NCBI GenBank assembly: GCA_035765535.1
Contig: DASTXE010000006.1
Span: 124,001 to 188,000 of the forward strand
Length of the DNA: 64,000 nt
Reading direction: 5' to 3'
From: Rickettsiales bacterium
GTDB taxonomy: Bacteria; Pseudomonadota; Alphaproteobacteria; Rickettsiales; JABCZZ01
Below the pieces are notes generated by a model. The model ran no database searches. It saw only the letters and a program-made list of their open reading frames with translations, and was not told where the DNA came from. The stretch's first letter is position 1; each line of letters opens with the position of its first letter. The position numbers were made by a program, and so were the translations under genes. Positions 43,427-52,373 of the stretch are shown here, one piece after another.

Positions 43427-43435
43427 TGCTATGAT
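43427..43435 (+). promoter_or_regulatory. Extended -10 promoter of the CHAP/lysozyme gene
   Basis: TGC followed by TATGAT forms an extended -10 box. It overlaps the upstream in-frame ATG at 43431, so transcripts would start about ten bases later, which favours the start at 43494. Confidence 0.4.
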
Positions 43436-43493
43436 GGTTTTACTTGAGGAACCGCATTGGGTTCTGCAAAGCGATAAAAAGAAGGTAAAAGAT

Positions 43494-46400
43494 ATGCCGG
43501 GTCGCTACGCTGGTTCGCTCCATTCCAGCCTTATATCCACTCTGTGGTGGCTTATAGCCTGCCTGCTCTTTCTTACCCCGCATAAAGCCTATTCCGCCTA
43601 TGCAAAAGCGACCAGCTTTCCGACTGCACAGGCACTCGGCCTCAAAACCGTATGCGGCGACGGCAGTAACGAATGGGTTACATTGACCTGCGACGGCTTT
43701 CCCGCATTTAATCCTAATAACTGCGCTGGCCATAGCGTCTACTCTAATGACGGTCATAACACCAATGACGATCCGCCAAGTCCTCCCAATGAATTCCGCT
43801 CCTACCACTACATTCCGGGTAACCCGAACGCTTCCGGCGGTTATATCTGCCGCGAACTTGCGATACGTTACTTTAAATTTCGCTGGGGAATCAATATTGC
43901 GGGCGATAATGACCAGCTCGGCGTTCCTTGTGAGACACATCCGGGCTCCAAGGTAATACCGAAAGGCGGCTCTCCTGTACCGGGAGACGTTGCTGTCTAT
44001 TCTGGCTGCGATGATCCTTTCGGAGGTTGCTCAGGACATATTGCAGTCGTTGATCACTACAATCCCACAACCCAAATGGTGACGCTTGTTAACCAGAATT
44101 TCGGCAGCAAGAACGGCTATACTGATTTCAAAGTAACTCAGGCCACCTGTTATATCCATGCCCTGGCCAATCAAAATACGGCTAACACAGATGACAACAC
44201 ATGCGAACCCGGTGCGGGAGCTGCGGCAGACTGCACCAGCAGCCAGACAGAGGGTGCCGGCGCAGGCAATAAGCTCTGCAAAAACAAGAAAGGTGAAGCG
44301 ATTTATTGCACAACCTGTGATGCTCAGATACCTTATGAACCTAACGTATTCTCATTCGATGGATATCCGGCATTCAACTCTAACCACTGCTTAAGCTACG
44401 GAGACACCTGGTCCACAGACGGTTTCAATACTTATCCGAATAAAGCCTCCATTCCGACCACCGATCCTAACTACAGTAAAGCCTATGCAACGGATATCGG
44501 TGGCGGCGGTTATCAATGTATGGAATTCGGCAACCGCTACTTCCATTTCAAGTACGGCATAGATCTGCGCGGCAATCCGGCAGATTATTGCGACAGCGGT
44601 CCCAACAGCAAAGATCCGGCGGACGGTTCCTGGGTCCACACCAATAAACCGGCACCAGGCGACCTGATGATGTTTAACGGAAGAATGGGCTGCGGGATTA
44701 ACGACGCAGGGATCGGTCACGTTGCCGTCGTCAACTCGGTCGACCCGGATGGCACTGTGCACACAGCCAACCAGAACTGGTCGCGCCCAAGCATGGATGA
44801 TAAATCCGCTTACAAAGCATGGCCTTCAAGCTGCGCATGTACGTTCCTCCACGCCACCAAAAACGCTTCTGTAAGTATGGCTTCCACCTGCTCGCTCAAA
44901 TTCAGGCAGGAAGCTTACTCACTGGCCGTATTCAATACCGGCATTACCGGCACGATCGACCGTAACGGCGATTTGATGGTATTCAGCAGAAACGTGTTTG
45001 GATGGGTATGGAGTGCCATACATGATCTGCCCCCACTGCTCTCACCACCATTTTTCAATCATTGGACACCGTTCAATCCGGTTATGCCGCCGGCCGTCGT
45101 CAATGCGGTAAGCGACCCCGTGGCCATGCTGCATCCCGGTGACAAACGTATTGAATTCTTCTATGTCGGCATTGACCCTTGGTGCGAACTGGCCAGTATC
45201 GCCGTTACCGCCTCTACGGCCGGGCTGGTAACCGGTCCTTCCTGCTCGCTCAATATCTGGCACGACTGGCAGACCCATGCCGCCTGGGAAGCTTGCCTCT
45301 TCGGTGCATGCGCGCATATCCCCGGCTGGTGGTCTCTCGTACCTCATCATTTGCAGGACAATAAAACGCATCCGCGCAGCAATGTATCCGTGATCAATTT
45401 CCACGGCACCACCATGGTATTCTATCTGTCTTCGACCGATGACGGCAATATCTGGGAGTTGGAAGACCACGGGGGAAGCTGGACCGATCCTGTTAATCTA
45501 AAAGTAGGTAAGAATGGTATAGCCAACTTGACCGTAATTGCAGTGGGCAACACAATTCATATTTTCTACCCAGGCCCGCTGATGACGGGTAACACGCCGG
45601 ATAAGAGTGACGTTCTATATGTATGGCACACTTACAGCAGCAGCGGAAGCAGCGGATGGTCGAAGCCTTATAATCTGGGCGATGTCGTCACCAGTAATAT
45701 TGCCGCTGCCGTCAATCCCGACGGCAGGCTTGAGATTTTCTATCGCGGGGCCGCAGAAGAACTGAGGCATATGTGGCAGCTGAGTCCGGGCCCGAAAGGT
45801 ACATGGAATCAGCCCGTCCCGCCCGCCGCTGCTAAGGACTTCTCTCAGGTACTGCTGTATGATCCGTCTCTGGGCCCGATCATGACCAGTGATCCGGCAG
45901 TAGCGACTTATGTCCCCAACAAGGACAATACCGGGAATGATCAGCTCGGCACCCCCAATACCGACCGCGGAACCATTAACACTTTCAACGGCTCCGACGC
46001 TGGCAAACCCATGCAGGTATTCTACCGTGGAAGCGACGGGTATGTGTGGACGATGTGGCGAGTATCCGACACTCCCACGCATAATGGCATCTGGTCACCC
46101 ACCATGGAAATCAGCCACGAAATGGTGACCGCGAGCCCGATCACCGTCATTCCGAATAACGACAGCACCCCGCACGTCTTCTTCTACGGTCCGTTGTCGA
46201 TCGCGCTTGACAGATTCGGAGAAAATCTTGGCATTCCGGGTGCAGGGGCACTCATGCAAATCGGTACAATCATCGCTGACCCCATTCTGAAATGGTGCGA
46301 CCTCGCATGGAACGTACATCAGGTTGCACCCGGCAGTAACGAGCCCAGGCCAAATTATCCGGGCAACTGGAGTAAGCTGGATATGATCTTCGGCCTGATC

Positions 46401-47024
46401 AACCGCAATCCAAACCAGGCGACAGTCGGCTCCTCGGGCGCTCCCGGTACTATTCAGTGTTCAGGCCAGCCCCCCGCACAGACCGCCCCCATGTGCAAAA
46501 CAAAGTTTGTAATGGACAGCGCAGGTATGACCATGCTTGCAGCAGAAGAATCACACCCCTGTCATCCTGACAGCTGCCCGAGTGTGGATGGACATATCAC
46601 GTTCGGTTACGGTCTCGATCTCTATGAAAACCCGAGCCAGAACTGGTGCGAACTTAACGGCACAAAAGTGCAGGTATGCCCGAACAACTTCTCTCAGGCG
46701 GATCTGCTGACATGTGCAAACCAGACCTTTGCTAGAGAGTTACAGGGCTTCTCCGATTGCGTGAACAAAGCTGTTGCGAATTACTGCATATCGCAGGCGC
46801 AGTTCGATGCCCTGACGAGTCTGGCCTATAATACAGGCTGCGGTGGTTTGCATTCTTTCATGAGCATGAACGCCGGTAATTTTGCGAGCAGCAACTGGAA
46901 TGCCATCGGCGCATCCATGCCCGGTTTCAGAAATAATGGCGGCGAATTGAGAAGCCGCCGCCAGAAAGAATGCAATATGTTCATCACCGGCAATCCCGAA
47001 GGGAAAAGCCCCTATTGCAATTGA
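43494..47024 (+). CDS. Giant exported protein: two CHAP domains, beta-propeller, GH24 lysozyme domain
   Basis: A secreted protein of 1,176 residues, probably a peptidoglycan hydrolase. I chose MPGRYAG as start: AAGGT lies seven bases upstream and a signal peptide follows directly (hydrophobic LISTLWWLIACLLFL, cleavage near AYSAYA). CHAP domain 1 has Cys119 (GGYICRELAIRYFKF) and His182 (SGHIAVVDHY); CHAP domain 2 has Cys342 (GGYQCMEFGNRYFHF) and His409 (IGHVAVVNSV). Residues about 480-915 hold repeated V/I-F-Y...W units (IFYRGAAEELRHMWQL, VFYRGSDGYVWTMWRV) typical of PLL/tectonin-like lectin propellers. The C-terminus resembles GH24 lysozyme: Glu in MLAAEES, ITFGYGLDLY, ALTSLAYNTGCG and LRSRRQKECNMF. 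Many cysteines suggest disulfides outside the cytoplasm. It stands alone between two terminators. Confidence 0.88.
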   Translation: MPGRYAGSLHSSLISTLWWLIACLLFLTPHKAYSAYAKATSFPTAQALGLKTVCGDGSNEWVTLTCDGFPAFNPNNCAGHSVYSNDGHNTNDDPPSPPNEFRSYHYIPGNPNASGGYICRELAIRYFKFRWGINIAGDNDQLGVPCETHPGSKVIPKGGSPVPGDVAVYSGCDDPFGGCSGHIAVVDHYNPTTQMVTLVNQNFGSKNGYTDFKVTQATCYIHALANQNTANTDDNTCEPGAGAAADCTSSQTEGAGAGNKLCKNKKGEAIYCTTCDAQIPYEPNVFSFDGYPAFNSNHCLSYGDTWSTDGFNTYPNKASIPTTDPNYSKAYATDIGGGGYQCMEFGNRYFHFKYGIDLRGNPADYCDSGPNSKDPADGSWVHTNKPAPGDLMMFNGRMGCGINDAGIGHVAVVNSVDPDGTVHTANQNWSRPSMDDKSAYKAWPSSCACTFLHATKNASVSMASTCSLKFRQEAYSLAVFNTGITGTIDRNGDLMVFSRNVFGWVWSAIHDLPPLLSPPFFNHWTPFNPVMPPAVVNAVSDPVAMLHPGDKRIEFFYVGIDPWCELASIAVTASTAGLVTGPSCSLNIWHDWQTHAAWEACLFGACAHIPGWWSLVPHHLQDNKTHPRSNVSVINFHGTTMVFYLSSTDDGNIWELEDHGGSWTDPVNLKVGKNGIANLTVIAVGNTIHIFYPGPLMTGNTPDKSDVLYVWHTYSSSGSSGWSKPYNLGDVVTSNIAAAVNPDGRLEIFYRGAAEELRHMWQLSPGPKGTWNQPVPPAAAKDFSQVLLYDPSLGPIMTSDPAVATYVPNKDNTGNDQLGTPNTDRGTINTFNGSDAGKPMQVFYRGSDGYVWTMWRVSDTPTHNGIWSPTMEISHEMVTASPITVIPNNDSTPHVFFYGPLSIALDRFGENLGIPGAGALMQIGTIIADPILKWCDLAWNVHQVAPGSNEPRPNYPGNWSKLDMIFGLINRNPNQATVGSSGAPGTIQCSGQPPAQTAPMCKTKFVMDSAGMTMLAAEESHPCHPDSCPSVDGHITFGYGLDLYENPSQNWCELNGTKVQVCPNNFSQADLLTCANQTFARELQGFSDCVNKAVANYCISQAQFDALTSLAYNTGCGGLHSFMSMNAGNFASSNWNAIGASMPGFRNNGGELRSRRQKECNMFITGNPEGKSPYCN

Positions 47025-47392: not shown

Positions 47393-47818
47393 TTACTGAG
47401 TCTTATATTCTTTCATAGTGCCGTTGCAGCCCTGGCTGATATCAACGCCCCTGCGCCACTGTTCAAGCTCCATGATACGCGCATAGATAATTTTTTTTCT
47501 CAGGTCGCACTCGCATGTTTTCTCCATGGAACCATAGGCATGACGGTACTCGGGAGGAAAAACGGCATTGATCTCGGAATCACGGAAAGCGACCCATGCT
47601 TTTTGCGCCGTTTCAAGATATTTCAGGAATCGCGGATCGTAGCTGTATTCCTTGACAACCGCTTGGTAGGTCAGATCGAGCGTTGCCTGCGCTTCGTCGG
47701 CATCATGGCAATGCTTCACATTCAGCTGATTCTGGCTTTTAGGCTCTTCTGCTTCCTGTGCACTGGCGAATGCCGGTAACACAAGCAAAGCAGTTGCTAA
47801 CAATGCGGCTTTCATCAT
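47393..47818 (-). CDS. Exported LprI-like (DUF1311) protein
   Basis: A 141-residue protein with a signal peptide (MMKAALLATALLVLPAFASA). The mature part contains ATLDLTYQAVVKEY, LETAQKAWVAFRDSEINAVFPPEYR, MEKTCECDLRKKIIYARIMELEQW and several Cys residues, the pattern of the LprI/DUF1311 family. One founding member, mycobacterial LprI, inhibits lysozyme; most members are untested. It is convergent with the large CHAP/GH24 protein, separated by 370 bases, which makes a protective role against that enzyme worth testing. It follows astD on the same strand after 64 bases. Confidence 0.82.
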   Translation of the reverse strand: MMKAALLATALLVLPAFASAQEAEEPKSQNQLNVKHCHDADEAQATLDLTYQAVVKEYSYDPRFLKYLETAQKAWVAFRDSEINAVFPPEYRHAYGSMEKTCECDLRKKIIYARIMELEQWRRGVDISQGCNGTMKEYKTQ

Positions 47819-50586: not shown

Positions 50587-52215
50587 TCATTTACTGAGAA
50601 GCATTTCCGCCGTGTTCCGCTCGGATGAGGAAAGCGTTGCATTCTTATCCAGATAATTAAAGCTGGTTTCGCCTTCGCTGTCCTTTGTGCTGGGATCAGC
50701 GCCATAGGCGATCAGCTCTCTTATAATATCCGGCGTGCTGTACCATGCGGCATACATAAGCGCCGTGCGTCCTCCGGCCTCAAGGGCGATAGAGCTGCTT
50801 TCGCATTCCTCCGTATCGAAGGTGGAAAGCGAGACATCCGGTTTATGCGTCATCAGTGCCGTTATGGCCTTCTTGTTACCGTATTCAATCGCATACATTA
50901 GCGCCGTTTTGCCGAAATGGTTCTGCGCATTGATATTCGCGCCGCGTTCAAGCAGCAGCCTGATTACATCCGGTCGCAAAGCCGCCTGCATAAGCGGCGT
51001 ATCCACCTTCCCTCTTCCGCCTCCGTCCACTGGAGCACCGTCATCGAGCAGCTTGCGTATATTGTCGAGGGGATAGTCATTCACCACCGCAAGCCGCAGA
51101 AAGCGCCCCAGCTGGTTTTTATAACGGGCACGTGCTGCATCGTCGCCTTTCAGATAAATATCCAGATCATTCAGATCCGCTACACGTACCACCCCAGAGG
51201 CATTACCGCCTCCGCCCAGATAATCATTGGCCAGATACACCATATAATATTGTGCGACTTTGCGTGCCTTGGCCGGATTCCATTTGAACTTCTGGATATA
51301 ATAAGCCACCAGCCCCTCTTCTGCCGGAACCCGTAAGCGCTTGAGTGTCTGGTACTGCGCTTTTTCCCATAGCCCCTGCTGCGACCAGCGCTGGATTTGC
51401 GTCGCAATTGGGTTGGAGGGCTGGTTTTCATCGAACATATCGACCTGCTTCAGCATGACAGGATCGACATCGCCATCATTCAGAAGCAGCAACTCATCTA
51501 TCTTGGCGGAGCGGTAATGCGACGAATTTACATTTTCAGCGCAGGTGCTTCCACCGCGCATATACTCAAGCTGTGAGATATATTGTGATAAGCCCACAAT
51601 AGTATCGGCCTTGCGCGACTGATCGCAGACCGGCGCAAACTGCTCCATGTTGCGACAACTTCCGAAGATACGCGCTGCCTGTTTTGGATCGATTGTGAAA
51701 TACCGGCAGGAAAACTCGCGTAGCGCCTGCGGGCTCTCAACCTCGCCGATGCGTGAGATATCCGCGCAGGTTTTATCTCCGAGATAGGCCGCCATCTCGT
51801 AAACCTTTTCATCCGTAAGCGGCAGAGAAATATCCGGCCGGTTCAGCACCACCAGCCGCTCACGATACGCTGTCCTCAAGCAATCCAGCTCGCTCCTGCG
51901 CACATCGGCTTTTTCTTTTTGCAAGGTAACGCAGCGCTCATTAAGATTCTTTCGCCAATGTTCCTGCCGAACTTGCAGGGCATGTTCTTCTGCCGGATCA
52001 TCCTGCGATTGGTTACGCGCGTTTGCCAGGGCTTCCGCCATTTCCCGGTCCAGGGACATCAGCTCGTCACTGCTGCAAATCAGGGAAGCCAGCTCACCAG
52101 CCTGATGGCGGTTGCAATGGAAGTACGGAAGGGTATTTCCTTTTTCTGCCGCACGCGCAACACTATAGCTCGCTGCAGCAACCACACACCAGCCAATGAC
52201 GGCTAACCTTCTCAT
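50587..52215 (-). CDS. Exported fusion of LprI-like domain and ankyrin repeats
   Basis: A 542-residue protein. The start MRRLAVIGWCVV begins a signal peptide ending ARAAEK; a GTG- or ATG-started longer frame upstream adds unlikely sequence. Residues about 30-150 form an LprI/DUF1311-like domain (SLICSSDELMSLDREMAEALANARN, HWRKNLNERC, ELDCLRTAYRERL). A middle region of about 230 residues with paired Cys is unrecognised. The C-terminus has at least three ankyrin repeats (VDTPLMQAALRPDVIRLLLERGANIN, GKTALMYAIEYGNKKAITAL, GRTALMYAAWYSTPDIIRELIAYGADPS). Likely periplasmic. Partners unknown. Confidence 0.83.
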   Translation of the reverse strand: MRRLAVIGWCVVAAASYSVARAAEKGNTLPYFHCNRHQAGELASLICSSDELMSLDREMAEALANARNQSQDDPAEEHALQVRQEHWRKNLNERCVTLQKEKADVRRSELDCLRTAYRERLVVLNRPDISLPLTDEKVYEMAAYLGDKTCADISRIGEVESPQALREFSCRYFTIDPKQAARIFGSCRNMEQFAPVCDQSRKADTIVGLSQYISQLEYMRGGSTCAENVNSSHYRSAKIDELLLLNDGDVDPVMLKQVDMFDENQPSNPIATQIQRWSQQGLWEKAQYQTLKRLRVPAEEGLVAYYIQKFKWNPAKARKVAQYYMVYLANDYLGGGGNASGVVRVADLNDLDIYLKGDDAARARYKNQLGRFLRLAVVNDYPLDNIRKLLDDGAPVDGGGRGKVDTPLMQAALRPDVIRLLLERGANINAQNHFGKTALMYAIEYGNKKAITALMTHKPDVSLSTFDTEECESSSIALEAGGRTALMYAAWYSTPDIIRELIAYGADPSTKDSEGETSFNYLDKNATLSSSERNTAEMLLSK

Positions 52216-52373
52216 ATTCTTATTCCCAAACGCTGTGCCAGTATAGGTAGCACCCACAACTGAAACACACCTTAACAATATTTCATCCATACTTCCACAG
52301 GATAAACGGGAAAAACAGTATTAAAACTATAGAGGCTTTGGATTTGCACAAACTATATGCTATAGCGTTGGCG

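Follow-up and report, generated by a model that had tools for sequence, protein, structure and literature searches.

The 64,000-nucleotide window analysed here raises the question of what a single exported polypeptide of Rickettsiales does with two CHAP domains, a lectin-like propeller, and a GH24 lysozyme domain. CHAP domains cleave peptide or amide bonds, while GH24 domains cleave glycan strands. The reading that we favour, with a probability of roughly 0.6, is that this protein is a secreted, glycan-targeted peptidoglycan hydrolase that cuts both peptides and glycan. The gene is found as a single copy in a genome of 2.6 Mb, and its features are the following:

43494..47024, + strand: whole gene, with two CHAP domains, propeller, and GH24 domain (open reading frame call and ribosome-binding site)
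43494..43601, + strand: Sec-type signal peptide (hydrophobic core WWLIACLLFLT followed by AYSAYAKA, identified by eye)
43749..44165, + strand: CHAP1, with C140, H203, and N221/N223 (second Pfam stretch; 37% identity to CHAP2; phage CHAP profile)
44337..44864, + strand: CHAP2, with Q362, C363, H430, and N447/N449 (Pfam match at 358-449; LytN and lysin CHAP structures; phage CHAP profile)
44892..46205, + strand: PLL-type lectin propeller, seven blades read (matches to PLL structures and G002 lectin profiles)
46206..46496, + strand: linker with no assigned fold (no Pfam match; sequence only)
46497..47000, + strand: GH24 lysozyme domain, with E1040, C1049, and T1057 (Pfam, alignment of 39 relatives, AlphaFold model, and fold search)

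The open reading frame can be extended to 43431..47024 (+ strand, 1197 codons). However, ATG 43494, which yields a protein of 1176 residues, is the better start, because a GAAGG ribosome-binding site lies approximately 12 nt 5' of it, whereas ATG 43431 has no such signal. Residue numbers are counted throughout from ATG 43431, not from ATG 43494. The signal peptide claimed by the first-pass annotation is borne out by the hydrophobic stretch that follows ATG 43494 (WWLIACLLFLTPHKAYSA, by eye), and the protein would be exported by the Sec pathway.

Two CHAP-like units, each with Cys and His, had also been described in this protein, and both hold. Pfam recognizes CHAP (PF05257) with 51.2 bits (cut-off, 26 bits) in two stretches, the best of them at 358-449, and a phage CHAP profile built without the window sequence recovers CHAP2 (E 3.5e-12) as well as CHAP1 (E 6e-6). 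The catalytic Cys and His are kept in both copies (C140/H203 and C363/H430), which share 37% identity and are probably the products of a duplication. The Cys, the His, and the Gln-Asn of the CHAPs are conserved with respect to phage lysins. The third catalytic residue is Asn in both copies (N221 and N447) in place of Glu or Asp, so that the motif reads NQN where phage lysins hold EQN or DQN. A Glu or Asp in this position is common, yet not found in every papain-like enzyme, and since papain itself has Asn, this residue alone is not expected to be disabling. The Gln preceding the CHAP Cys helps to form the oxyanion hole (PMC8586454); CHAP1 has Ile in its place, while CHAP2 keeps it (Q362). CHAP1 is the more diverged copy and may be weak, and CHAP2 is more likely to be the active one; it would use a Cys-His-Asn site to cut peptide or amide bonds, with CHAP1 possibly helping. 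The model of the pair was poor (pLDDT 44) and unusable for a fold search. Compared with LytN and the staphylococcal phage lysins, the window CHAPs have the Cys, His, and Gln-Asn motif in common, but they differ in their tandem arrangement, the Asn replacing Glu/Asp, their Gram-negative source, and their many cysteines.

The C-terminal domain, the only GH24 domain of the source genome, matches Pfam Phage_lysozyme with 44.9 bits at 1050-1180 (cut-off, 22.3 bits). Its AlphaFold model (pLDDT 77, pTM 0.76) fits solved GH24 endolysins and muramidases with a VIA-align Z of about 15 (14-15.6), the segment of the active-site loop being of low confidence; the T4-lysozyme-like domain proposed earlier is thus confirmed by profile, by structure prediction, and by fold search. 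Among 39 relatives from phage contigs, the positions of E1040 and T1057 are invariably Glu and Thr (39 of 39 in each case), while that of C1049 holds Cys in 28 of them and Asp in the other 11. The spacing Glu-8X-Cys is exact, and that between Cys and Thr is 7 due to a two-residue insertion; insertions at this place also occur in some relatives. In the same alignment, D1047 occupies the position of an otherwise invariant Tyr. C1044, four residues past E1040 and near the active site, is not matched by a Cys in any of the 39 relatives, so that a disulfide cage is conceivable. A disulfide between C1110 and C1137 is likely, since relatives have Cys at both positions (4) or at neither (35). The domain would cut the glycan strand with its E1040-C1049-T1057 triad.

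P1 Lyz and other GH24 endolysins and muramidases share with this domain the fold, the Glu-8X-Cys, the Thr, and the same Cys variant of the triad. In contrast to them, the window GH24 belongs to a long secreted lectin protein, has a Cys-Thr spacing of 7 instead of 5, lacks the Tyr, and is devoid of a SAR anchor, the only hydrophobic export signal lying approximately 1000 residues before it and looking cleavable. Many GH24 proteins, both from this order and from viral contigs, likewise have Cys in place of the triad Asp (YxCPAG; L008, L034, L035, L038, and others).

Loss of the catalytic Cys, His, or Glu would speak against a hydrolase; the Cys and His of the CHAP domains and E1040 of GH24 are all retained. 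The earlier proposal of an enzyme cutting peptidoglycan in two ways stands in that most of the needed residues are kept, and requires correction for the divergence of CHAP1, the Asn of the CHAP sites, and the Cys replacing Asp in GH24. With both bond types cut by one bound molecule, the sacculus would be opened efficiently. The best likeness of CHAP2 and GH24 is to phage lysins, consistent with the protein having been acquired whole from a phage, as a lysis or tail protein. Nevertheless, the protein holds a signal peptide and a lectin propeller, the GC and third-position GC of the gene are close to those of the neighbouring genes, pointing to native composition, and the open frames that contain the 80 viral GH24 matches do not exceed 389 aa, all of which makes such an origin highly improbable.

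Between the enzymatic domains, residues 488-925 give matches to Photorhabdus lectins of the seven-bladed PLL/PHL type. The at least five propeller-like repeats noticed at first fit a propeller in which seven putative W-motif blades can be read (at ~505, 562, 650, 698, 755, 850, and 900), and PLL/PHL is now named as the relative. A single blade, 755-792, matches PLL strongly on its own (single-blade i-E ~1e-8 and 3e-9), and the others are read via the lectins of G002, a congeneric genome (53% complete). The whole-chain E of 2e-35 against the PDB overstates the match, because it arises mainly from this one query blade being counted against many target blades. With the G002 lectin profile, the window propeller is matched in 271 columns (E 1.2e-12), and a PLL lectin lengthwise in 328 columns (E 2.5e-22); the PLL kinship of the remaining blades is supported through these same-genus lectins. 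While the blade motif and the apparent blade number seem to be shared with the Photorhabdus lectins, the window propeller differs in its long inter-blade insertions, the strong divergence of most blades, and its fusion to hydrolases. In PLL lectins, fucose and O-methylated sugars are bound in sites between the blades (PMC6943638), and by analogy with these relatives, the window propeller would attach to the sugars of a target envelope by way of several weak sites. A typical seven-repeat PLL lectin is also encoded by an 8 Mb alphaproteobacterium (G378, L013:1351-2457), far from Photorhabdus.

G002 encodes four secreted PLL-type lectins, three of which end in a GH24-like piece. In these pieces, the match to Phage_lysozyme is confined to profile positions 17 or 18 to 72 (E 7e-5, 5e-4, and 0.13; profile comparison, E 1e-7), and reading of the sequences reveals that each of the three has Ile in place of the Glu, and that the Thr position holds Val, Leu, and Thr. 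The signal peptide and the propeller are common to the G002 lectins and the window protein but, unlike the latter, the former hold no CHAP domain, miss the second half of GH24, and have lost the catalytic Glu. Because the propeller-GH24 fusion occurs in three of four G002 lectins, it is a trait of the genus, of which the window protein represents a CHAP-bearing version with an intact GH24 triad, the CHAP domains having been either gained here or lost in the others. With their GH24 remnants, the lectins of this sister species make up a natural series that leads from enzyme to non-enzyme. The remnants, together with the missing oxyanion Gln of CHAP1 and the missing Tyr of GH24, would also suit a protein that acts chiefly as a lectin or adhesin, with the propeller as its working part and enzymatic domains that are losing, or have lost, their activity; however, the window protein has an intact GH24 triad and keeps Cys and His in both of its CHAPs, and we consider this explanation unlikely.

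Regarding the surroundings of the G002 lectin genes, the fourth (L043:7497-9005, with no GH24 remnant) lies downstream of a porin-like gene, while Cys-rich, Ser/Gly-rich exported proteins are encoded directly before three of the lectin genes (L042:7554-8873, L041:7172-8584, and L041:10381-11420), the two longer of these proteins having no Pfam match.

With the protein as query, searches of genomes from the same order (344), phylum (398), and class (385), sets with little overlap that total ~1,100, did not reveal the same domain order. No full-length relatives appeared in the genome or viral contig collections, where limited pattern scans reach close relatives only. Phages and plasmids (tblastn) gave at most short GH24 or CHAP matches, never the full order, and viral contigs probed with the CHAP pair, the G002 lectins, and a PLL lectin gave no match. 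A literature search for propeller, CHAP, and lysozyme domains together retrieved no paper. All the parts are known, activity is likely, and the order CHAP-CHAP-propeller-GH24 is apparently new, in agreement with the initial statement that no characterised protein is known to have it. As this combination is absent from all other genomes searched, the protein appears to be a cell-wall-degrading enzyme of a new kind. The expectation of something undescribed therefore holds for the domain order but not for a wholly isolated invention, as the lectins of the sister species end in a GH24 remnant. Matches in G048 and G245 were examined and are not relatives of the whole protein.

This protein joins two kinds of wall-cutting enzymes with a lectin whose family has been described chiefly in Photorhabdus. 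Provided that it is active, it would reveal how uncultured alphaproteobacteria with small genomes attack or harvest the walls of other cells, and would provide a natural example of a lectin-aimed lysin. Its role may be that of an antibacterial toxin, a predation factor, or an enzyme for the own wall, all three of which had been suggested at first.

Concerning where such an enzyme acts, two further genes downstream have to be considered:

47393..47818, - strand: exported LprI-domain protein of 141 aa, convergent and downstream (PF07007, 36.4 bits)
50587..52290, - strand: ankyrin-repeat protein with an N-terminal LprI domain (Pfam)

Past the hydrolase gene, the order is the first LprI protein, astD, astA, and the ankyrin-LprI protein, and the only two LprI domains of the genome lie within 5.3 kb. 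Among 301 same-order genomes, only G002 encodes a relative of the first LprI protein. These findings hint at a link of LprI to the hydrolase gene, but no more than that: the G002 gene is located between cysS and a holA-like gene and not beside a lectin, both genomes belong to one genus, and lysozyme is not inhibited by ScwA, an LprI-domain protein that acts as a regulator of wall enzymes in Salmonella (PMC7933661).

In the source genome, no type II secretin scored above its cut-off, so that export past the periplasm is putative. This, the Sec signal as the sole export signal, and the adjoining LprI genes, given the role of ScwA, fit an enzyme that stays in the periplasm and remodels the peptidoglycan of its producer, with the propeller on its own glycans and LprI proteins regulating it. 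On the other hand, the gene is absent from nearly all relatives, which is odd for basic wall growth, PLL relatives bind foreign sugars, and three catalytic domains per chain look excessive for remodelling; a role on the own wall is thus possible, albeit on the improbable side. As a secreted hydrolase, the protein would most likely act outside its producer, on the walls of other cells or on wall debris. More speculatively, the LprI proteins encoded nearby, or a disulfide that engages the catalytic Cys, might keep self-harm in the periplasm in check. In a fuller proposal, the protein stands for a new class of lysins, secreted for antibacterial or scavenging use and aimed by their lectin, which cut peptides and glycan and are kept inactive during export by a C1044-C1049 disulfide (as in P1 Lyz), by LprI proteins dedicated to guarding them, or by both; this is for now quite doubtful.

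Upstream of the gene, mutS and maeB are syntenic in G002, where the DNA after maeB differs. A recent insertion of foreign DNA was considered and discarded given the native composition, despite this difference. The named relatives of astA belong to uncultured environmental MAGs, labelled as Alphaproteobacteria, Rickettsiales, or Pseudomonadota.
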